Source of the DNA: a virus
DNA: 28,435 nt
Strand: one strand, 5' to 3'
Virus record (IMG/VR): IMGVR_UViG_3300042471_000360
Span: 1-28,435 of that record
Shown piece by piece: positions 1,380 to 23,802 of the stretch (positions are counted from its first letter, which is position 1; each line of letters opens with the position of its first letter). The position numbers and the translations under genes were made by a program. The notes beneath the pieces were generated by a model. The model saw only the letters and a program-made list of their open reading frames with translations. It was not told the DNA's origin and did no database searches.

Positions 1380-3410
1380 ATGTCAGATGTATTTTCTTTT
1401 AGATTGTTGGATGAATTTGTAAATAAATATAAAGATATTGAGGCTCCTTTTGGTTTTACCGACGCTGGCGGCAACTCTTTAGGAGAGATTACTTTTATCC
1501 GCACATACTCACGAGTCAAAGAAGACGGTACAAAAGAACGCTGGCATGAGGTTTGTAAGCGTGTAATTGAAGGTATGTATTCAGTACAAAAAAACCATGC
1601 AAAAGAAAATCGTTTGCCATGGAATGACAACAAAGCTCAAAAGTCTGCTCAAGAAGCCTATGACCGTATGTTTAACTTGAAGTGGACTCCTCCAGGACGT
1701 GGGCTATGGGCTTTTGGTACCCCTATGACGATGGAGAGACGCAATTCAGCAGCCTTGCAGAACTGTGCCATGGTATCTACTAGGGACATTGATAGAAACG
1801 ATCCTGGCGCCCTTTTTGGCTGGGTTATGGATGCCTTGATGCTTGGGGTAGGGGTAGGATTTGACACCCTTGGACAAGAAAAGGGTATGGAAATATATGC
1901 CAATACCAAAGAAGAAATAACATATGTAATTCCTGATACAAGAGAAGGATGGGTAGAGTCTGTAAGATTACTACTCAATTCATATTTAAAACAAGGTCAG
2001 GCTAAAATCAATTTTGACTATTCTTTGATTAGACCATTGGGTGCTCCTATTAAAGGTTTCGGCGGTACCGCCTCTGGACCAGCCCCATTAATTAAGCTAC
2101 ACGATACTTTACGTATTGTTATTGGCGACAGACCAGGAGAAACTCTTGACTCTCGTGCAATTGTAGATATTGTTAATCTTATCGGAACATGTGTAGTTGC
2201 TGGAAATGTTCGTCGTTCTGCCACGCTAGCACTTGGTTCTCCAGAAGATAAAGACTTTATTAATTTAAAAAATGCAGAAGTATTTCCTGATAGAAATTCA
2301 TTTGACCCAGAAAATCCTGGATGGGCATGGATGAGCAATAATTCTATTGCTGCTGCTGTAGGAACTAAATATGAAGATTATGTAGATTTAATTGCAGATA
2401 ATGGAGAGCCAGGATTTATTTGGCTTGATGTTGCTCGTAACTTTGGTCGTCTTGCAGATCCTGCAGATGGAAAAGATTATCGTGTAATGGGCTTTAATCC
2501 TTGTGCAGAGCAACCCTTAGAATCTTATGAACTTTGCACACTTGTTGAAGTACACCTAAATCGTCATGAATCTAAAGAAGATTTCTTGCGTACTTTAAAG
2601 TTTGCATATTTGTATGGTAAAACAGTCACTCTTGTTCCAACACATTGGCAGATTACAAATGGTATTATGCAGCGCAACCGTCGTATTGGAACATCTCTTA
2701 CTGGTATTGCATCTTTTGCAGACCAAAAAGGTTTGCCAGCAGTTCGTGAATGGATGGATGAAGGATACAAGACAATACGTAAATATGATCATTCGTATTC
2801 TGAGTGGTTATGCGTTCGTGAGTCAATTCGTGTAACAACAGTTAAGCCTTCTGGTTCAGTATCATTGCTATCTGGTGCAACTCCAGGAGTTCATTGGGGT
2901 CCAGGAGGAAACTTCTTTCTTCGTGCAATTCGCTTTGGCAATCAAGATCCAATGATTAGCTTGTTTAAAGCAGCAGGGTATAAAATGGAATCAGATCTAG
3001 TATCTGCCAATACAACAGTTGTATATTTCCCAGTACACTCGGGACATCCACGTTCTGAAAAAGATGTAACATTATTTGAGAAAATTGCACTTGCTGCAAC
3101 AACTCAAAAATATTGGTCAGATAATGGAGTTTCAGTTACCCTTTCATTTGATAAGGAAACAGAAACAAAACATGTTGCTCCAGCACTTCATATGTATGAA
3201 GGTCAGTTAAAAGCGGTATCCTTCTTGCCAATGGGTAATAAGACATATCCACAACAGCCATATACTCAGATTACAAAGGATGAATATAACGAATATATTG
3301 GACAGATTAAGAAGATTAATTGGTCTGCTATTTATGACGGGGTAGATAATCTAGAAGCTGAAGGCGAAGCATACTGTACTACAGATACATGCATGATTAA
3401 AATATCTTAA
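1380..3410 (+). CDS. nrdJ: Adenosylcobalamin-dependent ribonucleoside-triphosphate reductase (class II, monomeric)
   Basis: This enzyme reduces ribonucleoside triphosphates to deoxy forms for DNA synthesis in the infected cell, using coenzyme B12 to generate a thiyl radical. The 676-residue protein keeps the key residues of the Lactobacillus leichmannii-type enzyme: a redox pair C129 (ALQNCAMVST) and C386 (ELCTLVE), the active-site NPCAE at 373-377 with thiyl C375 and E377, and a C-terminal CTTDTC pair (C666, C671) that shuttles electrons. C375 and C386 are 11 residues apart, matching C408/C419 of the L. leichmannii protein. It is somewhat shorter than that 739-residue enzyme but looks intact. 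An extended -10 lies upstream and GAGAGG at 1361-1366 is a possible weak ribosome site. Its position between fibre-like genes and the jelly-roll protein, away from any nucleotide-metabolism genes, is unusual. Confidence in function is high. Confidence 0.96.
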   Translation: MSDVFSFRLLDEFVNKYKDIEAPFGFTDAGGNSLGEITFIRTYSRVKEDGTKERWHEVCKRVIEGMYSVQKNHAKENRLPWNDNKAQKSAQEAYDRMFNLKWTPPGRGLWAFGTPMTMERRNSAALQNCAMVSTRDIDRNDPGALFGWVMDALMLGVGVGFDTLGQEKGMEIYANTKEEITYVIPDTREGWVESVRLLLNSYLKQGQAKINFDYSLIRPLGAPIKGFGGTASGPAPLIKLHDTLRIVIGDRPGETLDSRAIVDIVNLIGTCVVAGNVRRSATLALGSPEDKDFINLKNAEVFPDRNSFDPENPGWAWMSNNSIAAAVGTKYEDYVDLIADNGEPGFIWLDVARNFGRLADPADGKDYRVMGFNPCAEQPLESYELCTLVEVHLNRHESKEDFLRTLKFAYLYGKTVTLVPTHWQITNGIMQRNRRIGTSLTGIASFADQKGLPAVREWMDEGYKTIRKYDHSYSEWLCVRESIRVTTVKPSGSVSLLSGATPGVHWGPGGNFFLRAIRFGNQDPMISLFKAAGYKMESDLVSANTTVVYFPVHSGHPRSEKDVTLFEKIALAATTQKYWSDNGVSVTLSFDKETETKHVAPALHMYEGQLKAVSFLPMGNKTYPQQPYTQITKDEYNEYIGQIKKINWSAIYDGVDNLEAEGEAYCTTDTCMIKIS

Positions 3411-7043: not shown

Positions 7044-7045
7044 TC

Positions 7046-7054
7046 TGGTATACT
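7046..7054 (+). promoter_or_regulatory. Extended -10 promoter (TGGTATACT), leaderless configuration
   Basis: TG-G-TATACT begins 2 nt after the stop of the jelly-roll gene. The hexamer ends 7 nt before ATG 7062, so transcription should start at or next to the A of the start codon. No Shine-Dalgarno lies between, which fits leaderless translation. Confidence 0.65.
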
Positions 7055-7061
7055 TTAGTAT

Positions 7062-7460
7062 ATGAATCCTTTGATTAGTCAAAAAACTGGTAAACCAATT
7101 GTTCAAAATGTACGTAGAAAGGTCATAGATAAGTCATATGACTGGGGACTATATGTTTATAAAAAATCTAATGGAAAATGGTTTACAGATAATGATGGCA
7201 ATGTATTGAATATTCCCTCTATGAAGGGTGATATTTCTCAAATAACAAAGCTTAAGCAGGCTGCCATGCATTATGGTGATCCAGGTGATGGCAAGGCAGT
7301 ATTTGTTCCTGGACTTACAAGAATTAGCGATGATGAATATACTGAGCAGGTTGATAGAATGAAAAATGGTTTAATCCCATCAATGAACGATCTTGGCGCA
7401 TGGAAGGCAGCACAGGATACATTAAATACTCACGGAAGAGATGCTTACGAAAATGAATAA
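7062..7460 (+). CDS. Conserved-looking small protein upstream of portal, function unknown
   Basis: The 132-residue protein is predicted to start leaderlessly at ATG 7062. It is mixed and soluble-looking: a basic N-terminus (residues 1-25), an aromatic segment WGLYVYKKSNGKWFTD near 28-43, a central KGDISQITKLKQAAMHYGDPG at about 54-74, and an acidic C-terminus containing SMNDLGAWKAAQDTLNTHG. No cysteine cluster, signal peptide, membrane segment or nuclease motif is visible. Its end overlaps the portal gene by 8 or 20 nt depending on the portal start, so the two are probably translationally coupled. In many phages this position holds the large terminase, but this protein is far too short and lacks Walker motifs. 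I recall similar unnamed proteins beside portals in actinobacterial phages, without an assigned function. A minor head role is a guess. Confidence 0.7.
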   Translation: MNPLISQKTGKPIVQNVRRKVIDKSYDWGLYVYKKSNGKWFTDNDGNVLNIPSMKGDISQITKLKQAAMHYGDPGDGKAVFVPGLTRISDDEYTEQVDRMKNGLIPSMNDLGAWKAAQDTLNTHGRDAYENE

Positions 7461-9127: not shown

Positions 9128-9136
9128 TGATATAAT
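9128..9136 (+). promoter_or_regulatory. Extended -10 promoter (TGATATAAT) for protease/scaffold/capsid operon
   Basis: A perfect TGnTATAAT lies in the 40-nt gap after the portal gene and ends 9 nt before ATG 9146. A -35-like TTGAGA at 9106-9111 is 19 nt upstream, slightly too far. The short distance to the start codon implies a leaderless or nearly leaderless message. Confidence 0.7.
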
Positions 9137-9145
9137 TAACCTGCC

Positions 9146-10450
9146 ATGATTATAAATAAAGCACAATGGACTACAGATGGCGACAATGTTCGCTTCTCTA
9201 TGCCTATTGGCAAAGTAGACCAAGAGCGTCGTATCGTTTCTGGCTTTGCTACATTGGACAATGTAGACAAGCAGGGCGATATTGTCACAACTGAAGCAAG
9301 TATAGACGCAGTTAAGAAATTCCGTGGCAACCTTCGTGAAATGCATCAGCCTAGTGCTGTAGGAAAGGTTGTTTCATTTAAAGAAGATCGTTATTTTGAT
9401 CCTAGAGAAAAAAAGTTTTATAGTGGAGTATATGTTTCCGCATATGTTTCAAAAGGAGCCCAAGATACTTGGGAGAAAGTTCTTGACGGTACTTTAACTG
9501 GATTTTCAATTGGTGGAAATATTACAAAGTCTGATGACATGTATGATGAAAAAATTGATAAATCAGTGCGTATAATTAAAGAATATGATCTGCATGAATT
9601 GTCTCTAGTAGATAATCCAGCAAACCAGTTTGCCAATGTAATTTCTATTGAAAAAGGACAGCTTGGTGGTTTTCTTGCAAAAGCTGTTGTAGATACAGTT
9701 TACTGGTGCGGTTCAGATGACATAGTTAGACTATCAAAAGAGTCTGACGAAAATTGTCCATCTTGCAATGACACAATGAAAAATATTGGATTTGTTGAAG
9801 ATCAAAATGATACAGAAACACTAAAGTTCTTAGTTGATAGTGCAAAAGGCATTAAGACAATTAAGATAACAAAGGAGGAAAATCCTATGACAGAAGAAAC
9901 AAAAGAGACAGCTCCAGCATTGCTTGCTGAGGGTGAGTCAGTTGTTCCAAATGTTGAGGTTGCTCCAGAGGCTCCAGCAGAAGAAGCACCAGCAGAAGTT
10001 TCTGCAGATGTTCCAGCAGCAGAGCCAGTGGCAGAGGAAGCAGTAGCTGCAGTGGATGCTCCTGCTATTGATGATATAGCAGAAAAAGCAGTTGATGCAG
10101 TTGTTGATACAGCTGCTGAAATTGCAAAGTCTGTTTCAGAAATTAATACCTCTGTAACTAATGCCTTGAGCAATCTTGCAGAAACAGTAAAAGCTATGCA
10201 AGCAAATGTTGATGCAATAACAAAGTCCCTTGAAACAGTTACAGGCGAAGTAAAGTCTGTAGCAAGTGAGGTAAGCCAAGTAAAGGGAACTTTTAATGAG
10301 TTTGGAAAGCGAGTAGATCTTGTTGAAAAAGATACGGCTTTCCGCAAGTCTGGCGATCTAGGCGAGATCGTACAGGAGCCTGTTGTAAAACAGGTTCAAA
10401 AATCCCTATGGGGCGGTCGTTTCCTCACAAATGCCGACCTATTTAACTAA
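9146..10450 (+). CDS. Prohead protease (S78-type) fused in frame to capsid scaffold domain
   Basis: Residues ~20-170 form an HK97/XkdF-like prohead serine protease: RRIVSGFATLDNVDKQGDIV, catalytic His67 in REMHQPSAVGKV, nucleophile Ser121 in LTGFSIGG, and an LHELSLVDNPAN segment with Glu151 as possible third member. A small cysteine region follows (C188, then CPSC at 204-207), perhaps a degenerate zinc ribbon. After about residue 248 comes an Ala/Pro/Glu-rich stretch, then a long helical coiled-coil region (about 275-400), and a C-terminal tail KSLWGGRFLTNADLFN that may bind capsid protein. Full length is 434 residues. The enzyme matures the prohead by cleaving scaffold and capsid arms; the fusion would deliver it into the shell. 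An internal start at 9887 probably yields free scaffold. A promoter lies directly upstream and the capsid gene follows 27 nt later. Protease assignment is strong; scaffold assignment is from composition and position. Confidence 0.88.
   Translation: MIINKAQWTTDGDNVRFSMPIGKVDQERRIVSGFATLDNVDKQGDIVTTEASIDAVKKFRGNLREMHQPSAVGKVVSFKEDRYFDPREKKFYSGVYVSAYVSKGAQDTWEKVLDGTLTGFSIGGNITKSDDMYDEKIDKSVRIIKEYDLHELSLVDNPANQFANVISIEKGQLGGFLAKAVVDTVYWCGSDDIVRLSKESDENCPSCNDTMKNIGFVEDQNDTETLKFLVDSAKGIKTIKITKEENPMTEETKETAPALLAEGESVVPNVEVAPEAPAEEAPAEVSADVPAAEPVAEEAVAAVDAPAIDDIAEKAVDAVVDTAAEIAKSVSEINTSVTNALSNLAETVKAMQANVDAITKSLETVTGEVKSVASEVSQVKGTFNEFGKRVDLVEKDTAFRKSGDLGEIVQEPVVKQVQKSLWGGRFLTNADLFN
9871..9878 (+). 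promoter_or_regulatory. Strong internal Shine-Dalgarno (AAAGGAGG) for nested scaffold start
   Basis: AAAGGAGG is nearly complementary to the 16S rRNA 3' end and stands 8 nt before an in-frame ATG at 9887. It encodes only TKEE in the protease frame. It is stronger than the ribosome sites of most neighbouring genes, including the protease itself, which has none. Confidence 0.7.
9887..10450 (+). CDS. Nested scaffolding protein translated from within the protease ORF
   Basis: ATG 9887 is codon 248 of the protease ORF and is in frame with it. It begins MTEETKETAPALLAEGE and would give a 187-residue acidic, Ala/Glu-rich then coiled-coil protein ending in the same LWGGRFLTNADLFN tail. The upstream AAAGGAGG at 9871-9878 with 8-nt spacing is what supports separate translation. 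Scaffolding proteins are typically small, acidic and helical, are needed in far greater amounts than protease, and leave the prohead during maturation. The layout matches the known lambda arrangement in which Nu3 scaffold is made from an internal start in the C protease gene. That this start is used is an inference from the ribosome site; only protein data would prove it. Confidence 0.68.
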   Translation: MTEETKETAPALLAEGESVVPNVEVAPEAPAEEAPAEVSADVPAAEPVAEEAVAAVDAPAIDDIAEKAVDAVVDTAAEIAKSVSEINTSVTNALSNLAETVKAMQANVDAITKSLETVTGEVKSVASEVSQVKGTFNEFGKRVDLVEKDTAFRKSGDLGEIVQEPVVKQVQKSLWGGRFLTNADLFN

Positions 10451-11688: not shown

Positions 11689-11901
11689 ATGTCATATCCA
11701 GGAAATCCAACTATAAATCATCAACACAGTGGTGATGGAGCAATAGCTGCTGGTGGCATAGGAACAGTTATTAGTGGACCCAATGGAATTATTACAGAAA
11801 GATTTGCAATGGGGTGTATCCCTACAGCAAACTTTGGAGAAAATATAATAATGAGTGGAACTCCTGCTGGTATAAGAAAACCACAAACATTTAGAAGATA
11901 G
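11689..11901 (+). CDS. 70-residue protein resembling the N-terminal arm of the major capsid protein
   Basis: ATG 11689 is preceded by AGGAGA at 11679-11684. Residues 3-25 match capsid residues 10-32 through the shared pattern YPGxPTIxHQHxGDGAxAxGxIG, and the last 14 residues (GTPAGIRKPQTFRR) match capsid residues 69-83 (GTPGGILLPEQARRF). The part between differs. The gene therefore looks like a shortened paralog of the capsid N-terminal arm, ending where the shell fold begins. It contains no domain able to form a shell. It sits between the capsid hairpin and the next promoter, so it probably depends on capsid read-through. Possible roles are a cement or decoration peptide, a competitor for scaffold or protease, or a component that reuses an arm-docking site. 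Function is unknown; the similarity is directly visible. Confidence 0.75.
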   Translation: MSYPGNPTINHQHSGDGAIAAGGIGTVISGPNGIITERFAMGCIPTANFGENIIMSGTPAGIRKPQTFRR

Positions 11902-15016: not shown

Positions 15017-15652
15017 ATGGCATATACTCGTGGTACGTCAACCAACATTATTGTTGGTGCTGCAGCGCTTTTTGTAGCAGATACTACTCTGACTTCAACA
15101 TCGCTACCCGCATTTACTTCAAGCGAGTCTTATAAAGAGACTCTTGCTGACGAATTAGATTTTACAAATGTGGGCTATACCATGAACGGTCTTGAATTAC
15201 AGTTCCAACCAGACTTCGGTGAAGTACAGGTTGATCAAATTCTTGACGTTGCTAAGTTGTACAAGCAAGGCATGCAAGTAAATCTTGCTACTGCTTTTGC
15301 TGAGGCTACCCTTGAGAACCTTCTTTTGGCTCTTGCTTATAGCTCTGATGAACTATCAGGAACAAAGTCCACTTCAACAGGACAAACTCTTAACCTTTCA
15401 GCTGGTGACATTGGAGAATGTCCAGTTGAGCGTGGAATTGTTGCTGTTGGACCTGGAACTGGAGATTGCGAAGATTCAGCATATGTAGAGCGTGTTTACG
15501 CTGCTTACCGTGCGCTCTCAATTGAGAACGTAACTGTGTCTGCAAAGCGTGACGAACCTTCTATGTTTGAGGTTTCTTTCCGTCTTCTTCCTGAAGATAC
15601 ATCGGCTTCCTATGGTAAGATCATAGATCGTACTTGGACCCCAGCAACCTAA
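15017..15652 (+). CDS. Major tail (tube) protein
   Basis: The 211-residue protein is taken as the tube subunit that polymerises around the tape measure. Evidence is its place between the tail terminator and the assembly chaperones, its size, a beta-rich pattern (TNIIVGAAALFVAD; VGYTMNGLELQFQPDFGEVQVDQ; ENVTVSAKRDEPSMFEVSFRLLP, quoted in parts), and a helix near residues 90-112 (ATAFAEATLENLLLALAYSS). It has its own promoter, a good ribosome site (AGAGGTG), codons richer in CGT and CTT than neighbouring genes, and a strong terminator, all fitting a product needed in hundreds of copies. It has two cysteines close together (GECPVERG and GDCED) whose pairing is unknown. No enzymatic motif is present. 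Confidence 0.82.
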   Translation: MAYTRGTSTNIIVGAAALFVADTTLTSTSLPAFTSSESYKETLADELDFTNVGYTMNGLELQFQPDFGEVQVDQILDVAKLYKQGMQVNLATAFAEATLENLLLALAYSSDELSGTKSTSTGQTLNLSAGDIGECPVERGIVAVGPGTGDCEDSAYVERVYAAYRALSIENVTVSAKRDEPSMFEVSFRLLPEDTSASYGKIIDRTWTPAT

Positions 15653-15675: not shown

Positions 15676-15706
15676 AGGCCCATCCATAGTGATGGGCTTT
15701 GTTGTT
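15676..15706 (+). terminator. Rho-independent terminator after the tail tube gene
   Basis: AGGCCCATC (15676-15684) pairs with GATGGGCTT (15691-15699) in nine base pairs, one of them G-T, around a 6-nt loop, followed by a T-rich run TTTGTTGTT up to 15706. It should stop the abundant tube message before the long chaperone gene. Its T-run abuts the next promoter. Confidence 0.88.
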
Positions 15707-15707
15707 A

Positions 15708-15716
15708 TGATAGAAT
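15708..15716 (+). promoter_or_regulatory. Extended -10 promoter (TGATAGAAT), leaderless, for the long tail chaperone
   Basis: TG-A-TAGAAT differs from the window's consensus at the third hexamer base. The hexamer ends 7 nt before ATG 15724, so the message should start at or next to the start codon; no ribosome site is available. It lies immediately after the terminator T-run. Confidence 0.6.
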
Positions 15717-15723
15717 ATATAAA

Positions 15724-16443
15724 ATGGCTACAGAAATTTATAAAAAAGATAAAATATTTTTAATAGATGGCATAGAGATAGAAATTGTGCCATTAAAAAT
15801 AAAATATTTAAGAGAATTTATGCACAGTTTTGAAAAAATTTCAAAAGCAAAAGACGATGATGAAGCAATTCAAATTTTACTAGAATGTTCATTTATATGT
15901 ATGAAACAGTATTATCCATCTTTATCAAAAAATATAGATGAGTTTGAAAATAGTATAGATTTGCCAACAATATATAAAGTAATAGATATTGCTGCTGGAA
16001 TTAAAATTGATAAAAAGTCAGAAGATACGGTAAAAGATCAGGCGACAACTAGTGGATTAAGTTGGAATGAATTAGACTTAGTTAAGTTAGAGTCTGAAGC
16101 TTTTTTGTTAGGTATATGGAAAGACTATGAAGATTTAGAGATATCATTATCTATGCCAGAATTAACTGCTACTTTATCAAGTAAAAGACATATAGATTAT
16201 GAAGAAAAAAAATTTTTAGCAGCAATACAGGGAGTTAATTTAGATAATGAATCTAGCGATGGAAAACGTAGGGGTCAACAAGAATGGGAAGATTTAAAGG
16301 CTAGGGTTTTTAGTAAGGGTAAAACAGCAGATGGAAATGATGTTTTAGCTTTACAAGGACCAACTGCTAAAAAAGCTGGATTTGGTATTGGAATGGGTCT
16401 AGATTATGATGATATGAGAGACCCATCTTTAATGAAATCTTAA
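15724..16443 (+). CDS. Tail assembly chaperone, long form (G-T equivalent)
   Basis: The 239-residue protein is colinear over its first ~95 residues with the short protein encoded at 16500: LIDGxEI near 13, PLKI near 23, a MKQYxPxL segment near 60, and DLPTxYK near 79. After residue ~105 it adds a T-like domain: WNELDLVKLESEAFLLGIWKD, quoted in part, then LSMPELTATLSSKRHIDYEEKKFLAAIQGV and a Gly-rich, charged tail. In lambda and most siphophages the long form arises by programmed frameshifting; here it is one continuous ORF. Such proteins coat the tape measure and recruit tube subunits but are absent from the finished tail. Expression signals look weak: an imperfect -10, no ribosome site (leaderless), AT-rich codons with many ATA and AGA. 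The terminator upstream insulates it from the tube message. Role is by family and position. Confidence 0.82.
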   Translation: MATEIYKKDKIFLIDGIEIEIVPLKIKYLREFMHSFEKISKAKDDDEAIQILLECSFICMKQYYPSLSKNIDEFENSIDLPTIYKVIDIAAGIKIDKKSEDTVKDQATTSGLSWNELDLVKLESEAFLLGIWKDYEDLEISLSMPELTATLSSKRHIDYEEKKFLAAIQGVNLDNESSDGKRRGQQEWEDLKARVFSKGKTADGNDVLALQGPTAKKAGFGIGMGLDYDDMRDPSLMKS

Positions 16444-16464
16444 TTTAAAAAAAATAGCGCTTTA

Positions 16465-16473
16465 TGCTATAAT
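16465..16473 (+). promoter_or_regulatory. Extended -10 promoter (TGCTATAAT) for short chaperone and tape measure
   Basis: A perfect TGnTATAAT lies in the 56-nt gap between the two chaperone genes. A second, weaker TGATATAAC follows at 16475-16483. The leader of about 20 nt includes a strong ribosome site AGGAGG at 16489-16494, 5 nt before ATG 16500. Confidence 0.7.
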
Positions 16474-16499
16474 TGATATAACCTATATAGGAGGAAATA

Positions 16500-16817
16500 A
16501 TGGCTACAACTAAGTATGAGACAGAACAACTCACGCTTATTGACGGAACAGAGATTTCTGTTCGTCCTCTCAAAATATCACTTCTTCGTCCTTTTATGAA
16601 GAAGTTTGAGGGAGTTGCGGCAGTGGCGGATGATAATGAAAAGTCAATGACTCTTCTTGTTGAATGTGTTCAAATTGCTATGAAGCAATATAAGCCTGAA
16701 TTGGCTGAGAACATTGAGAAACTTGAAGAAGTTTTAGATTTGCCAACTGTCTATAAGATTGTAGAGGCTGCTTCAGGTGCAAAACTTGCTGCTTCCGATA
16801 ATCTTAATCAAATGTAA
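16500..16817 (+). CDS. Tail assembly chaperone, short form (G equivalent)
   Basis: The 105-residue protein is a paralog of the N-terminal half of the long chaperone, aligning end to end with one single-residue gap; shared blocks include LIDGxEI, RPLKI/VPLKI, an LLxEC region, MKQYxPxL and DLPTxYK. It ends just after the G-like domain (ASGAKLAASDNLNQM). Unlike usual G genes, no T extension can be reached by slippage: only 25 nt separate its stop from the tape measure start, and I see no slippery heptamer near its end. It has a consensus -10, AGGAGG with 5-nt spacing and more CGT/CTT codons, suggesting higher expression than the long form, as expected for G over GT. It sits directly before the tape measure gene and likely shares its message. 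Confidence 0.82.
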   Translation: MATTKYETEQLTLIDGTEISVRPLKISLLRPFMKKFEGVAAVADDNEKSMTLLVECVQIAMKQYKPELAENIEKLEEVLDLPTVYKIVEAASGAKLAASDNLNQM

Positions 16818-16842: not shown

Positions 16843-19800
16843 GTGGCTGACGTTAATGCTAATATTGGCGTAAATATAGATACGTCAAATGCATTATCAC
16901 AATTAAAAGCTTTACAGCGTCAGATATCACAATTTCACACTTCAATATCAAAAAGCAGCGAAGCTGCTGCACTTGCACAACGTGATCTGCAGAGAAATTT
17001 TATCAATAGTGTTAATTCTATTGGAAATTTTTCTGCAGAATTGCGAACAGTAAGAACTACTGCTGAATCTTTTACAGACTCACTTGAAAAAAACAAATTC
17101 TCAATGCGAGAATATTTTCGTTTTGCTGGTGGAGCAACAAAAACTTTTGGTCGTTTATTTAAATCTGAATTTGATACAGTAAATAAGGTAGCCGAAGAAA
17201 GTGTTAAAAGGTTACAAACACAATATATTAAAATGGGCAGAGATGCCTCTGGAGCAATGCGGTCTATTGCTATTATTCCAAATCAGCTTGACATGTCTAA
17301 TATATCAACTCAGCTTCAGATGGCAGCACAAAGACAGGCAATTTTTAATCAACTTATAAAACAAGGGTCAACTAATTTATTAAATTTTGGTAAAAATACA
17401 CAATGGGCTGGCCGTCAGCTTATGGTTGGTTTTACACTTCCATTAATAGCTTTAGGATCTGCTGCTTCAAAAACATTCATGGATATGGAAAGTGCTGCCC
17501 TTAAGTTTAGAAAAGTATATGGAGATTTATTTACTCCAACAGAAGAAAGAGATCAGGCTCTTGCAGATGTTCAGGCACTTGGACAATCATTTACACAATA
17601 TGGAATTTCAGTTGCTAGCACAGTTGGTTTAGCTGCAGATGCTGCTGCCGCTGGTTTTCAGGGTATAGACTTACAAAGACAGGTAACTGAAGCAACAAGA
17701 CTACAAGTTCTTGGTCAAATTGATCAGCAAAAAGCACTAGAGACAACTATATCTCTGCAAAATGCTTTTAAATTATCAAATGAAGATTTATCAGACTCTA
17801 TTAACTTTTTAAATGCTGTTGAAAACCAAACAGTTGTTTCTCTTGATGATATTACTACTGCAATTCCTAAAGTAGCACCAGTTATCATGCAACTGGGTGG
17901 AGATGTAAAAGATTTAGCATTTTTTATGACTGCTATGAAACAGGGTGGTGTAAATGCATCAGAAGGTGCTAACGCATTAAAGTCTGGTCTTGCAGCATTA
18001 ATCAATCCAACTGAAAAAGCATCTGCAATGCTTGCTAATATGGGAATTAATATAAAGCAAATAGTTGAGGGTAATCAGGGAAATTTAAGAGCTACAGTTG
18101 TTGAGTTTGCAAAGGCATTAGATACATTAGATCCATTAACACGTGCTCGGGCTATTGAGCAATTATTTGGAAAATTTCAATTTGCTCGTTTATCAACACT
18201 TTTTGAAAATGTAACTTCTAGCGGAACACAGGCTGCACGTGTTCTTGAACTTGCTGGATATTCTGCTGAGGATTTAGCAGCAACTGCTGAGTCAGAATTA
18301 GGAATGACTGCCGAATCGTCTATGAATAAATTTCGTAAGGCAGTAGAAGACTTAAGATTAACATTAGTTCCAATTGGACAAGTATTTTTAGAATCAGTAA
18401 CACCAATTCTTGATTTTGTAGGAAGTATCGCTGAAAAATTTAATAACTTATCATCTGGTGTTAAAAAAGCAATAACAGTAATTACAGTAACGCTTGGAGG
18501 GATTGCTCCAGTAGCACTTATGACATTTGGTTTGATTGCTAATTTTATTGCAAATGGTATAAAATCATTAGCTCTTCTTCGTAATGGATATTTAAGATTA
18601 ACTGGACAGTCACAAGTGCTTGGAGAACAAACACAATATTTAACAGTTGAGCAACAAAATGCTTTAGCTGTTGCACACTCTCTTGATCAGTCACATGCTA
18701 GATTAATACAAACATTCAATGTGGAATCTGGCGCAGTACAAAAACTTGCACAGTCATATGAAAGAGCAATAGTTGCTGGAGCAAACTTTTCAAAAATAAA
18801 TCCTGGAATGATGCGTCAACCATTCTTACCAGGATTTAATACTGGAATTATATCCGTTCCTGGAAGTGGTAATCAGGATACAGTTCCAGCAATGCTTACT
18901 CCAGGAGAAGCAGTTATTCCAGCAGACATGGCAAAGAAATATGCACCACTAATACAGGGAATGATTGCAGGAAATATTCCAGGATATAGAATAGGAAGAA
19001 CTGGATCAGCATCGGGAACATTTACTAAAACAGCTTCAGATATAAAGAGCATGGATAAAGTAGCATTATATAAAGCACCATCTGCAATTAAAGGACAAAC
19101 TAGTAAAATTAACTGGTCAACACTTGATGCAGAATTACAGGCAATTGATGAATCCGTTCGTTCATATCTTGAACAACTTGGTTTTGGTGCTGAAGAAATA
19201 AATAGAAAGATAGGTGCTTTACAAAGAAAACAAGCATCTCATATTTCTGAACAGGTTCAACAAATAGAGGTTGCTGGTGAGATAGTTGATGCCAAACTAT
19301 GGAATGCTGATAATCTTATTGCAGATCTTGGCGGAATAAATAATTATTTAAATAGCATTCATAAAGTAACTGATTCATTATCACAAACAGACATTGCGGA
19401 AATGGCACAAAAATTAAATATGTCTATTGATCAATTTGAGGCCGAATTAAAACAATTACAAGAAGGAATTCATCCAACAACTAGAGCTGGTGCATCTGTA
19501 CTCGGTCAAGTTGCAAAGCGTGGAGCAGAATCAAAAGATGTATCTTTAGCATATCAAAGCAGAGCAGCTGCTGCTGTAACGGATGTAAGATTGCAGGGAG
19601 ATTTTTACGAAACTAAAGAGCAAAGAGCATATAATCCTGAAAAAGATCTTAGAGCACTTGAGCAAGTTGAAAGAAAAGTATTAAACTTTAGAGAAGAAAT
19701 TACAAAAGCATTTAATATTGGTGATGAAATAGCACAAATATCAGGACTAAATGTTCAATCTTTACAAAATATGTGGAATCAGCTAAGTGTTGAAGCAAAA

Positions 19801-22800
19801 GCAAGACTACTAGAACTCAAAGACGATGCTGGAGCTTTTACACAAGCCTTATTTCAAGAAGCACAAGAAGCAGGAATTGCTGGTGTTCAGCTCGGAGATG
19901 CAGCAATAAGAGGAATAGCACAAGGCACACAGTCTCAATCTAATTCAAGAAGAGCAATAAAAGAAGGTGACAATGTAGTTGGCGGTCTTGAACAAGGCAT
20001 GTTTGAAGGAATGGATGACGTAACACTAGCTGGTCAAAATCTAGGAGACGCTGCAATTGATGGCGTTAATCAAGGAACTGGCGGTGGAGGTGGAGCAAGA
20101 AATGCTGGAAGAGGTTTAGGAGGCGCTGCTGGAGGAGATGGTGGTGCTGGTGGATTTGGTGGATCAACCAAAAATCTAGCTAAATTTAATAGTGCACTTA
20201 TGGGTGTTTCTTTTGCTCTTACAAGTGTTAGCGGTGTCGCATCAGCATTCGGCGGTAGATTCCAAGGACTATCCGAAGCGGTATTTAAAATATCAGGACT
20301 AATGTTTGGTTTAATGTCAGTAGTACAACTACTTACACAAGAAATGTTTGCAAATGTAGTTGCTGCAAGAGCAAATAAAATTGCTACCGCTATGGGTGCA
20401 ACAAGCTTTAAAGGATTATTTGCAAATACTGCTGGATTTGGGTCTAAACTATTAACTGCAGGAAAATTTTTACTAAGATTTGCTGGAGTAGTAGGTGCTC
20501 TTGTTGGAGTAGTTAGTCTATCTATTGCAGCGTTTAAATTTATTAATAACCAAAGAGAAAAAGAACGTCGTGCAATAATGGGGCTTGCGGATGCTGCAAA
20601 TATAACATCTCAAAAATTAAAAACTCTTGGTGATTTTTTTGGAATAAAGCCCACACAAAATCCTATGACTCAAGGTGTTCCACAGATCAGAATGACTGCT
20701 GAAAGACGAGGAAGGGTTGATGAATTAAAAGCAACAGAGTCTTTCCAAAAAGATTTTGCAGATGATATAGCAGAACTAAGAAAGGCAACTGCTAAAGAAG
20801 CAGAAATTACATTTAGAACTATAGCCTTATCTCTTGCTGGACAAGGCTTTGGCAAAGAAATGATTTCTGATGTAATTGATGCTTTGCGTGAAGAAGCAGG
20901 AAAAACCGATGTAAAAATTGATCTTAAGTCTTTAGATCTTAAAACAGAAGAGGGCCAGTCTGGATTTGCTAAACTTGCCTCTGATATAACAAATGAATTG
21001 GCTGTAGCAGCAAAAACTGGATATAAAGAAGTTGAAGTATTAAAACAAGGAATTTATGAAAACGGCGCTATGTACAGCTATTATACAAAAGAGCTTAAGC
21101 CTACAATAGCACTACAAAGAGCATCAGCTGCAGCTGGTCAAAATCTATTTAATATGATGACTGGACTTGCTGGCGGTTTAAAATCTGGTGCTATAGGGGC
21201 TAAAGAATTTAATCAAGGATTTAATCAACTAGAGGCACAAATGAAAGCCCTAGAAGCCGCAAATCCTGGATCTTCTATGTTAGCTCTTAATGCAGCAATT
21301 AAACTATTAGAACCAGAAACACAAAAACTATTTGTAGGAATTACAAATAACGCAGATGCAATGTTAATGCTAAGAGCACAAGCTTTAGGTCTTACAGCTA
21401 TACTTCCTGGACTTGCCTCAGCAATTAAACAAGTAAATGCTGGATATACTGGAGATGCAACAGCGCTTGTTCAGGCACAACTAAATCTTGAACGATATAA
21501 AAAAATGATTCTTGATGCTGCTAAGGTAACAGAAGAAGAAATTAAAAAATTACTTGGAACTAAAACTGGCGGCAAAGATGGAGAAAAATCTGCATTTCAG
21601 AAAGCAATTGAACAACTTAAACAGCAGCAGTTAGAGTTAGCATATACAAATAAAGCATATAATCGGTTGAAAAGAGCTGGAATTGAAACAGGTAAGGCAT
21701 TTGAGATTGCATCTGATCCAATTCTTGCTGCTGCACTGGCTACTACAAAAGTTGGAACAAAAAAATGGGAAGAGCTTATTTATTTAATAAAAAATGTAAA
21801 CATAGAACTTGCAAAGGGAGAACTAAAGAAATTCTTTGAAACAAGAAATGCTGAAGTTGAATTTCAACAAAAATTTGCAAATATTATTCCTATACTACAA
21901 AAACTTGGACTTGAGGGAGAAGATATAAGAGAAATATTATCTAATCCAATATTAGCAGAAAAATTTATTGAAGATCTTAAAGATGGCCAGGTAGATTCTC
22001 AAAAATTAAAAAAATATATTGAACAAATTCCAGAATTAAAACAAATTGATATTTTATTAAATACTAAATCTGTACAGGATCAATTTGATGAAGCATTTAG
22101 TAAAGCCATGGAAGTTTTTGATATTCAATCTAAAATGGCAGAAGCAGAATATAAACCTAAAATTATTGATGCAGAAAAAGAAGTAAAGGCTGCACAAGAT
22201 GCTGTAAATGATGTACAAAAACAAATATCAGATCTACAAAGAAAGATACAGGCAGATCAAAGAGATGTAGAAATGAACTTTACAAGACCAATTGAGGTTT
22301 TGCAAAAAGATATACAAAGACTACAAAGACAAATTGAAACTCAGATTGATAGGCCAATAGAAGAGTTAAATAAACAGATATCTAAGCTACAACGTAATAT
22401 TGAAATACAGTTTGATAGACCAATTGCTGCTCTTCAAGAACAATCTTCAGATCTTGCAAATGATCTAACATTAATTGATAAAGCTGCTGAAGGAATAAAT
22501 GCAAAATATGATGCACAAGAAAAAGCATTACAACAAATTGCAGATGTTAATCAAGAAATTATTAATCAAGATAAACAAAGGCTTTCTGTTGCGGATGCTT
22601 TAACACGTGGAGATATTTCTGCTGCTGCTCAAGCAATACAAGAATCAAGAGCGCAGGCAGCAGCAGCAGCAGCACAACGTGCTACAGGAACTCTTCAGGC
22701 AGCACGAGAGACTGAAATTGGTGGTCTTCGTGGACCAGTTAGTGGATTAACTCGTGCTCAAATTGAACAGCAGCAGTTCCAAATTGGACAACAGATATTT

Positions 22801-23802
22801 GCTCTTGAAGAAAAACGTGATCTTGTTCAAGCAGAAATTCTTGCAAAACAAGACCAAATTTATAATATTGAATTAGCAAGACCTGTTTTACTAGAGCAAA
22901 TAAGATCTAAAGAAGACGAAATATATGTTCTTGAAAGAGGTAGAGAAACAGCAGTAGCAAATATTCGTATAAATGAAGATGCCTTATATAAATTACAAAA
23001 TGACTTACTTCCCCTTCGTGAAAAAGAGTTATCAGATAAACAGGCTGCACTTGATAAAGTTAAAGATGAACTAAAAAGTAGACTAGATGCTATTGATCTT
23101 GAAAAAGCTAAATGGGAACTTTCTGCTCTTGCATTGAAAGCTGCTGAAATAGAAGCTGATAAATATAACAAAGTTCTTGATGCTGGAAAAAATTTAGTTG
23201 GAGACATTGCAAAAGGATGGGATGCCGTTGCAGAAGCAGCAAGAAAAGCAGCAGCAAATATTGCAGCAGCAAATTCATCTCAATCGTCTGGGCTTGTATC
23301 AAAAGGAACAGTGACATCAACTAAGACAGTTGATGGAAGAACAGCAATAACGGGCATTCAGGCAAAAATGTATGGTGGAAAAATTAAGCCAATGGCATTT
23401 GGTGGTAGGGTAGGCTCTGATTCTGTTCCAGCTCTTTTAACTCCAGGAGAGTTTGTAATGAATAAATCAGCCGCAAAATCTTTTGGTCCTTTATTAAATG
23501 CTATTAATGAATCTAAGTATCCATCAATGATTGCAAGAAAACTTAAATCTAGCTCAAATCTTGGAAATGTTATTACCCAGTCTTATCAACAACCTACATA
23601 TGCTGTTTCTAGACCAACCGCTTTTTCAATGCCTGTTCAAAATGCAATAAGTTCTGTAAGTGATAATTCCAATACAGTGTATAATTATAGTGTTGATATT
23701 AATGTAGGTAGTACAAATGCAAGTGCAGATAGTATTGCCAAAGCTGTTATAGATGAAATTAGATATATTGATTTACAAAGAATTAGAGGTCAAAGAGCAT
23801 AA
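16843..23802 (+). CDS. Tail tape measure protein
   Basis: At 2319 residues this is by far the longest ORF and spans the inside of the tail, fixing tail length. GTG 16843 follows AGAGGTGA with correct spacing. Residues ~190-540 carry the TP901-type core (GRQLMVGFTLPLIALGSAAS, EGANALKSGLAALINP, ARAIEQLFGKFQFARLS). Hydrophobic stretches lie near 541-573, 1116-1169 and 1209-1233. A Gly-rich linker (about 1078-1108) separates two halves. A QDTVPAMLTPGEAVIP motif occurs near 681 and a related SVPALLTPGEFVMN near 2192. The region 1740-2140 is strongly coiled-coil, with a 22-residue repeat at 22312-22443. By the usual ~0.15 nm per residue the tail would be roughly 350 nm, ignoring any processing. No lysozyme or peptidase signature was recognised. 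Its end overlaps the next start (TAATG). Confidence 0.95.
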   Translation: MADVNANIGVNIDTSNALSQLKALQRQISQFHTSISKSSEAAALAQRDLQRNFINSVNSIGNFSAELRTVRTTAESFTDSLEKNKFSMREYFRFAGGATKTFGRLFKSEFDTVNKVAEESVKRLQTQYIKMGRDASGAMRSIAIIPNQLDMSNISTQLQMAAQRQAIFNQLIKQGSTNLLNFGKNTQWAGRQLMVGFTLPLIALGSAASKTFMDMESAALKFRKVYGDLFTPTEERDQALADVQALGQSFTQYGISVASTVGLAADAAAAGFQGIDLQRQVTEATRLQVLGQIDQQKALETTISLQNAFKLSNEDLSDSINFLNAVENQTVVSLDDITTAIPKVAPVIMQLGGDVKDLAFFMTAMKQGGVNASEGANALKSGLAALINPTEKASAMLANMGINIKQIVEGNQGNLRATVVEFAKALDTLDPLTRARAIEQLFGKFQFARLSTLFENVTSSGTQAARVLELAGYSAEDLAATAESELGMTAESSMNKFRKAVEDLRLTLVPIGQVFLESVTPILDFVGSIAEKFNNLSSGVKKAITVITVTLGGIAPVALMTFGLIANFIANGIKSLALLRNGYLRLTGQSQVLGEQTQYLTVEQQNALAVAHSLDQSHARLIQTFNVESGAVQKLAQSYERAIVAGANFSKINPGMMRQPFLPGFNTGIISVPGSGNQDTVPAMLTPGEAVIPADMAKKYAPLIQGMIAGNIPGYRIGRTGSASGTFTKTASDIKSMDKVALYKAPSAIKGQTSKINWSTLDAELQAIDESVRSYLEQLGFGAEEINRKIGALQRKQASHISEQVQQIEVAGEIVDAKLWNADNLIADLGGINNYLNSIHKVTDSLSQTDIAEMAQKLNMSIDQFEAELKQLQEGIHPTTRAGASVLGQVAKRGAESKDVSLAYQSRAAAAVTDVRLQGDFYETKEQRAYNPEKDLRALEQVERKVLNFREEITKAFNIGDEIAQISGLNVQSLQNMWNQLSVEAKARLLELKDDAGAFTQALFQEAQEAGIAGVQLGDAAIRGIAQGTQSQSNSRRAIKEGDNVVGGLEQGMFEGMDDVTLAGQNLGDAAIDGVNQGTGGGGGARNAGRGLGGAAGGDGGAGGFGGSTKNLAKFNSALMGVSFALTSVSGVASAFGGRFQGLSEAVFKISGLMFGLMSVVQLLTQEMFANVVAARANKIATAMGATSFKGLFANTAGFGSKLLTAGKFLLRFAGVVGALVGVVSLSIAAFKFINNQREKERRAIMGLADAANITSQKLKTLGDFFGIKPTQNPMTQGVPQIRMTAERRGRVDELKATESFQKDFADDIAELRKATAKEAEITFRTIALSLAGQGFGKEMISDVIDALREEAGKTDVKIDLKSLDLKTEEGQSGFAKLASDITNELAVAAKTGYKEVEVLKQGIYENGAMYSYYTKELKPTIALQRASAAAGQNLFNMMTGLAGGLKSGAIGAKEFNQGFNQLEAQMKALEAANPGSSMLALNAAIKLLEPETQKLFVGITNNADAMLMLRAQALGLTAILPGLASAIKQVNAGYTGDATALVQAQLNLERYKKMILDAAKVTEEEIKKLLGTKTGGKDGEKSAFQKAIEQLKQQQLELAYTNKAYNRLKRAGIETGKAFEIASDPILAAALATTKVGTKKWEELIYLIKNVNIELAKGELKKFFETRNAEVEFQQKFANIIPILQKLGLEGEDIREILSNPILAEKFIEDLKDGQVDSQKLKKYIEQIPELKQIDILLNTKSVQDQFDEAFSKAMEVFDIQSKMAEAEYKPKIIDAEKEVKAAQDAVNDVQKQISDLQRKIQADQRDVEMNFTRPIEVLQKDIQRLQRQIETQIDRPIEELNKQISKLQRNIEIQFDRPIAALQEQSSDLANDLTLIDKAAEGINAKYDAQEKALQQIADVNQEIINQDKQRLSVADALTRGDISAAAQAIQESRAQAAAAAAQRATGTLQAARETEIGGLRGPVSGLTRAQIEQQQFQIGQQIFALEEKRDLVQAEILAKQDQIYNIELARPVLLEQIRSKEDEIYVLERGRETAVANIRINEDALYKLQNDLLPLREKELSDKQAALDKVKDELKSRLDAIDLEKAKWELSALALKAAEIEADKYNKVLDAGKNLVGDIAKGWDAVAEAARKAAANIAAANSSQSSGLVSKGTVTSTKTVDGRTAITGIQAKMYGGKIKPMAFGGRVGSDSVPALLTPGEFVMNKSAAKSFGPLLNAINESKYPSMIARKLKSSSNLGNVITQSYQQPTYAVSRPTAFSMPVQNAISSVSDNSNTVYNYSVDINVGSTNASADSIAKAVIDEIRYIDLQRIRGQRA
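22225..22443 (+). repeat. Three tandem coiled-coil repeats inside the tape measure gene
   Basis: Two adjacent 66-nt units (22312-22377, 22378-22443) each encode a 22-residue module of the form IxxLQRxIExQxDRPIxxLxxQ. A longer, more diverged first unit (22225-22311, 29 residues) has ISDLQRKI and TRPIEVLQK. The DNA copies have diverged, so this is an old protein-level duplication in the rod-like region. Confidence 0.7.

Follow-up and report, generated by a model that had tools for sequence, protein, structure and literature searches.

A tandem pair of tail assembly chaperone genes that probably replaced a frameshifted locus in a clade of environmental phages

Two adjacent paralogous genes in a clade of environmental phages very probably encode the long (GT) and short (G) forms of the tail assembly chaperone, in an arrangement that would have replaced an ancestral −1 ribosomal frameshift and in which the ratio of the two products would be set at initiation and elongation. 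The pair was studied in a stretch of 28,435 nucleotides (the window; positions 1 to 28,435 of IMG/VR virus record IMGVR_UViG_3300042471_000360), a tailed-phage contig in which the head and tail genes follow one another in order. The two genes are homologous and both are under purifying selection, their relatives fall into two separate layouts, and the pair differs in start signals and in codon usage throughout the clade.

Siphophage tail assembly chaperones are absent from mature virions. Production of G and GT by frameshifting is a textbook case of recoding. The frameshift has been kept in most long-tailed phages because the ratio of its products is needed (PMC5009743; PMC4493119). In lambda, tail assembly depends crucially on a G:GT ratio of about 30:1; the tape measure is bound by the G part, and the major tail protein by T (PMC5009743). 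The ratio also matters in TP901-1, in which a forced permanent GT fusion results in non-infectious particles (PMC4493119).

The chaperone locus and its products

The pair is flanked by the genes for the major tail protein and the tape measure, and its two open reading frames were confirmed where a preliminary description of the window had placed them. The features of the locus are as follows.

15017..15652, + strand: major tail protein gene, the upstream neighbour (PHROG 'protein with Ig domain', E 6.8e-34; 'major tail protein', E 7e-4)
15676..15699, + strand: intrinsic terminator separating the major tail protein gene from the long chaperone gene (9-pair stem, T-rich tail)
15708..15716, + strand: extended −10 TGATAGAAT, a predicted leaderless-type promoter that ends 7 nt before the long ATG
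15724..16443, + strand: long tail assembly chaperone gene (239 amino acids; putative GT form in one frame)
16465..16473, + strand: extended −10 of the short gene, TGCTATAAT, 26 nt upstream of its ATG
16489..16494, + strand: Shine–Dalgarno sequence AGGAGG of the short gene, seen in the window sequence
16500..16817, + strand: short tail assembly chaperone gene (105 amino acids; putative G form only)
16843..23802, + strand: tape measure protein gene, the downstream neighbour (PHROG tape measure, E 1.7e-99; PF10145, E 5e-25), with a GTG start at 16843, 25 nt past the short stop

The long protein comprises a G domain (approximately residues 1–96) and a T domain (approximately residues 113–239). Residues 1–96 of the long and short proteins align at 47% identity (E 1e-31, for a single comparison), which bears out the earlier claim that the two are colinear over a G-like domain. 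The N-terminal parts of both proteins match the PHROG profile phrog_10504; the match to phrog_10474 is confined to the C terminus of the long protein, and the T-like extension is thus present only in the first reading frame, as had been described. The assignment of the G and T parts to separate PHROGs suggests that in other phages each domain usually appears as a gene of its own.

Among named phages, the closest relatives are Streptomyces phages in the family Stanwilliamsviridae, in which this region is annotated as tail assembly chaperone and the gene at the position equivalent to 15017..15652 as major tail protein. Annotated chaperones of Streptomyces phages match the short protein at E ~1e-15 and the long protein at E ~1e-29. 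The long product of Streptomyces phage Yaboi is annotated as a joined, frameshifted gene, and Rhodococcus phage Francesca, which matches the T domain, also has a chaperone gene annotated as joined (frameshifted). An AlphaFold (AF2) model of the short protein (pLDDT 80) has as its best match among viral models a protein named 'Tail assembly chaperone' (E 1.5e-6, TM 0.80); among solved structures, the HK97 chaperone 2ob9 takes ranks 1 and 2, weakly (E 0.58, TM 0.46). A Foldseek search with the model of the long protein (pLDDT 67) gave no solved-structure match. In a sequence search of solved structures the long profile returned chance-level matches only and the short profile none, and neither protein had a credible family match in Pfam or NCBIfam. 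Homology, gene order and domain structure together identify the long gene as the candidate GT form and the short gene as the candidate G form; as proteins, the two are ordinary chaperones.

Elsewhere in the window, a 70-amino-acid open reading frame (11689–11901) lies just 3′ of the capsid gene, and its product is similar to the N-terminal region of the capsid protein (39% identity across 74 columns; E 5e-13); with the capsid gene, it forms a second instance in the window of a short paralogue beside a full-length gene. A gene for a 676-amino-acid B12-dependent ribonucleotide reductase is found among the structural genes (1380–3410).

Two separate layouts among relatives

Relatives were gathered by four scans of viral contigs, together with four Streptomyces phage regions, and loci were sorted by profile HMMs applied to each forward-strand open reading frame. 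The 298 loci among the matches listed comprise 231 in which a G-only gene follows a fused GT gene (split), 55 with one G gene overlapping a T frame (frameshift) and 12 that are incomplete, nearly all of which are visibly cut at a contig end; these counts reflect the queries and the matches listed and are not population frequencies. No complete locus of mixed type was seen among the 231 and the 55. Once identical sequences were removed, this survey of related phages, which the preliminary description had proposed as a check, held 160 distinct split loci and 23 distinct frameshift loci. Searches over the full length of 20 long records gave exactly one G gene in 11/11 frameshift phages and exactly two in 9/9 split phages.

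The split loci belong to a large clade of environmental phages, and the frameshift set spans Streptomyces phages and uncultured relatives. To judge from the named relatives, the hosts of the split clade are probably actinobacteria. A host search in bacterial genomes with the short protein and the ribonucleotide reductase found no relative, and no tRNA was found in the window.

T lies in the −1 frame in all 55 of the G+T loci, and an in-frame X XXY YYZ heptamer falls within the G/T overlap in 20 of the 23 distinct ones (GGGAAAC in 18, CCCAAAC in 1 and CCCAAAT in 1). The three loci lacking a heptamer are those of Samistivirus and Karimacvirus (L294, L295 and L297); they have CCGGAA in the overlap, and their shift site would not be of the X XXY YYZ kind. 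No RNA structure was seen past the slip site of one uncultured relative, L131 (z −0.1).

The split locus has neither of the two features by which a lambda-type frameshift locus is recognized, a single G copy and a slippery overlap at the end of G. The preliminary description had held that the short gene has no reachable extension and no visible slippery heptamer, and both statements stand: in all 160 distinct split loci both shifted frames close within 53 nt of the short stop, and no slippery heptamer is seen in the short gene of the window. A residual slippery site was also considered for the split loci and rejected; XXXYYYZ heptamers are scattered through the 160 loci and lead nowhere. The proposal that duplication replaced frameshifting is strengthened by the comparison, as relatives of the same family keep one G gene with a −1 shift and a heptamer, whereas split phages carry G twice and can make no use of a shift.

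The long protein is colinear end to end, T domain included, with the predicted −1 GT products of relatives. One relative, for example, reads GIKFDDEGN and then RTSDGDSWSDLDLVKIESE, with its shift at the heptamer, where the window reads GIKIDKKSEDTVKDQATTSGLSWNELDLVKLESE. Because the colinearity extends throughout, the long gene appears to encode a permanent fusion equivalent to the predicted slippage product of its relatives.

Both copies are under purifying selection, with dN/dS values of ~0.10 for the long G domain and ~0.04 for the short gene, and the long G domains evolve faster in the G-domain tree. Six positions that are nearly fixed in the short and the uncultured frameshift G proteins (R22, S27, L28, K34, K35 and N45) are changed in the long protein, and some specialization of the long copy is therefore likely. 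The same six differences, at residues fixed in the short and in most frameshift G proteins, and the faster evolution of the long G domains would also fit a long gene with a separate job (for example, in tail initiation only), the pair being a specialized heteromer and not a simple dosage pair. Set against this reading are the colinearity of the long protein with predicted frameshift GT over its whole length and the constant company of the two copies in complete loci. We consider the heteromer somewhat unlikely; it is compatible with, and does not exclude, a GT and G pair that replaced the frameshift.

Start signals and codon usage

The long gene is preceded by a terminator, as the preliminary description had stated: the hairpin at 15676–15699 folds well beyond shuffled sequences (z = −5.2), and a terminator hairpin is found before the long gene in 154/160 split loci and before the short gene in 1/159. 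The same description had given the long gene an imperfect −10 and no ribosome site. The second point holds, as there is no Shine–Dalgarno motif at any of the 160 long starts. The −10 is TGATAGAAT, but this is not a weakened version of a normal start; it is part of a conserved arrangement that predicts a leaderless mRNA, which the first reading had missed. A relaxed extended −10 motif ends 5–10 nt before the long ATG in 153 of the 160 loci, with a spacer of 6, 9, 7 or 8 nt in 115 of 123 distinct upstream sequences. Of the 160 long starts, 113 have the strict motif in that position; none of the 159 short starts or the 23 frameshift starts does, and of 25,541 further ATGs in these loci, 19 do.

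A −10 that ends this near to an ATG causes transcription to start on the ATG or within a few bases of it. Given this well-established promoter geometry, the start of the long gene is predicted to be of the leaderless type, with transcription probably beginning at the ATG itself. In six loci (L053, L063, L066, L071, L072 and L075), the −10 is separated from the long ATG by a longer stretch that includes a G-rich segment. Two other genes in the window also look leaderless. In the 434-amino-acid gene at 9146, between the portal and capsid genes, TGATATAAT ends 9 nt before the ATG (window 9128–9146); in a 132-amino-acid gene at 7062, TGGTATACT lies ~7 nt before the ATG (window 7044–7062), making this the third leaderless-type start in the phage. 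Neither has a Shine–Dalgarno motif.

The start of the short gene is of a different kind. The −10 and AGGAGG first noted there are both present, the former as the extended −10 TGCTATAAT. Across the split loci, the extended −10 of the short gene lies mostly 23–28 nt before the ATG, giving a leader of ~25 nt, and some Shine–Dalgarno motif is present in 159/160 loci, with AGGAGG itself in 130/160. The frameshift G genes have an extended −10 mostly 22–36 nt before the ATG and usually a GAAAGG-type Shine–Dalgarno sequence; because these starts resemble those of the short genes, the short gene seems to have kept the ancestral kind of start, with the long gene as the odd one out. This contrast between long and short start signals is conserved across the clade.

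The contrast in codons between an AT-rich long gene and the short gene, also claimed beforehand, is real. In the window, ATA accounts for 10/18 isoleucine codons in the long G domain versus 1/6 in the short gene, and the GC content is 22.9% versus 38.7%. GC content is lower in the long G domain than in the short gene in 159/159 pairs. Across the long G domains, the short genes and the frameshift G genes, respectively, ATA makes up 51%, 8% and 8% of isoleucine codons, TTA 47%, 8% and 15% of leucine codons, and AGA/AGG 71%, 27% and 32% of arginine codons. Of the two copies, the long one alone is marked by such rare-type codons, to which the T domains lean in both layouts.

The conserved start signals and codon usage, found in nearly all 160 loci, point to a G:GT ratio set by expression strength, probably with G in excess over GT. 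How much of this the leaderless-type start would contribute is a separate matter. One alternative is that promoter strength, mRNA decay and codons alone determine the ratio of the chaperone pair; the proximity of the −10 to the long ATG would then be incidental, and the long mRNA would have either a short unstructured leader or a non-Shine–Dalgarno route such as S1. The spacer varies from 6 to 9 nt, so the transcription start may lie 0–3 nt upstream of the ATG, the six loci listed above have a longer leader, and the codon contrast alone could lower GT. Yet the distance from −10 to ATG is held at 5–10 nt in 153/160 loci while the preceding hairpins vary, the strict motif is absent from the same place in short and frameshift genes, and the lack of a Shine–Dalgarno motif extends to all 160 long genes. 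An incidental placement is in our view unlikely.

A leaderless start need not be a weak one. In Mycobacterium tuberculosis, an actinobacterium, leaderless transcripts are common and show no overall difference in mRNA:protein ratio (PMC3898074). The leaderless-type start of the long gene may thus act through promoter output or regulation and not through poor translation, and a low level of GT could come from the promoter or from codons alone.

Origin of the gene pair and comparison with known systems

In a tree of G domains, the long copies form one clade (support 98/93) and the short copies another (97/97), the latter nesting with the non-Streptomyces frameshift G genes. The tape measure tree places the split phages in a single clade (support 91) within the uncultured phages and leaves the frameshift phages of Streptomyces well outside it; resolution in the trees of T and of the major tail protein is too low to date the duplication. 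The simplest reading of the trees is that frameshifting is ancestral and that the split form arose once. Because the free G tree places the long copies outside a group of frameshift and short copies, the duplication may have come just before the split or earlier, with loss in the frameshift lineages.

That placement would also be expected had the long gene been acquired from another phage lineage and not duplicated in its own, and K27 and D45 are common to the long copies and most Streptomyces G proteins. Against acquisition, holding long and short copies together as one clade gives a likelihood 8.2 units higher, an arrangement that the AU test does not reject (p-AU 0.63), and none of the complete loci surveyed has a free-standing GT without a second G. 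We regard acquisition as distinctly improbable. As the window and its relatives are metagenome contigs, the split might be suspected of being a product of assembly or annotation, or a frameshift gene that has broken down, but this is refuted by 160 distinct split loci from many metagenomes, dN/dS values of 0.04–0.10 and conserved separate start signals, and we give it almost no credence.

We propose the following account of duplication in place of frameshifting. In an ancestor shared with the Streptomyces phages and the other relatives, one gene would have encoded G, with GT made by a −1 ribosomal frameshift of the kind that most uncultured relatives are predicted to undergo at GGGAAAC. In the split clade, the upstream of two copies of G would have been joined to T in one frame, and the downstream one would have lost T and the slippery site; promoter, initiation class and codons would then set G:GT in place of slippage. 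GT would be translated from a leaderless-type mRNA that is insulated by the terminator and rich in rare-type codons. G would have an mRNA of its own, transcribed from an extended −10 promoter and equipped with a strong Shine–Dalgarno site and favoured codons; it is probably translated from the long transcript as well. By homology to lambda, the G domain of GT would bind the tape measure while T recruits the major tail protein, and the more abundant G would coat the rest. The narrower proposition, that a near-universal frameshift was exchanged clade-wide for a paralogue pair whose ratio is fixed by a leaderless GT versus a Shine–Dalgarno G, is in our judgement evenly balanced; if it is true, tail assembly would respond to how the host balances leaderless and Shine–Dalgarno translation.

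A two-gene clade beside frameshifting relatives separates the ratio from the mechanism that produces it. Whether tail assembly depends on the ratio or on the frameshift becomes a testable question, with split and frameshift relatives serving as matched pairs for swap experiments. Two chaperone reading frames without an evident frameshift have been reported before (PMC7302621; PMC10885494), without paralogy as the explanation, and one survey counted 342 genomes in which two chaperone genes are present but a frameshift is not annotated (PMC10885494). Our results suggest that part of these 342 may not be annotation errors. In a literature search confined for the most part to openly available papers, we found no report of a paralogous G and GT pair.

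Like lambda gpG/gpGT and the siphophage frameshift locus in general, the pair in the window lies between the major tail and tape measure genes, and as in lambda there are two products with a common G domain, one of them extended by T. Lambda makes both from one gene by −1 slippage (PMC5009743), whereas the window has two paralogous genes and no apparent frameshift. The Stanwilliamsviridae phages Samisti12, Bmoc, BillNye and Yaboi have homologous G and T domains (~34–41% identity) in the same gene order as the window. They differ from it in that their single G gene overlaps T, which lies in the −1 frame; the two are annotated as joined in Yaboi, and no second G was present in the three whole genomes searched. 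The uncultured frameshift-type relatives (L128–L132, L139–L158, L225–L234 and L289) belong to the same family at ≤65% identity to the long protein of the window, but have a single G, with GGGAAAC or CCCAAAC as the heptamer.

Some Microbacterium cluster EA phages are set apart by their description, which is not of a duplicated G with a fused GT. The predicted start of the long gene resembles the leaderless mRNAs of actinobacteria, on which transcription starts at the start codon with no Shine–Dalgarno sequence (PMC3898074). Unlike those mRNAs, this putative leaderless start belongs to one member of a gene pair, the partner of which carries a strong Shine–Dalgarno site.
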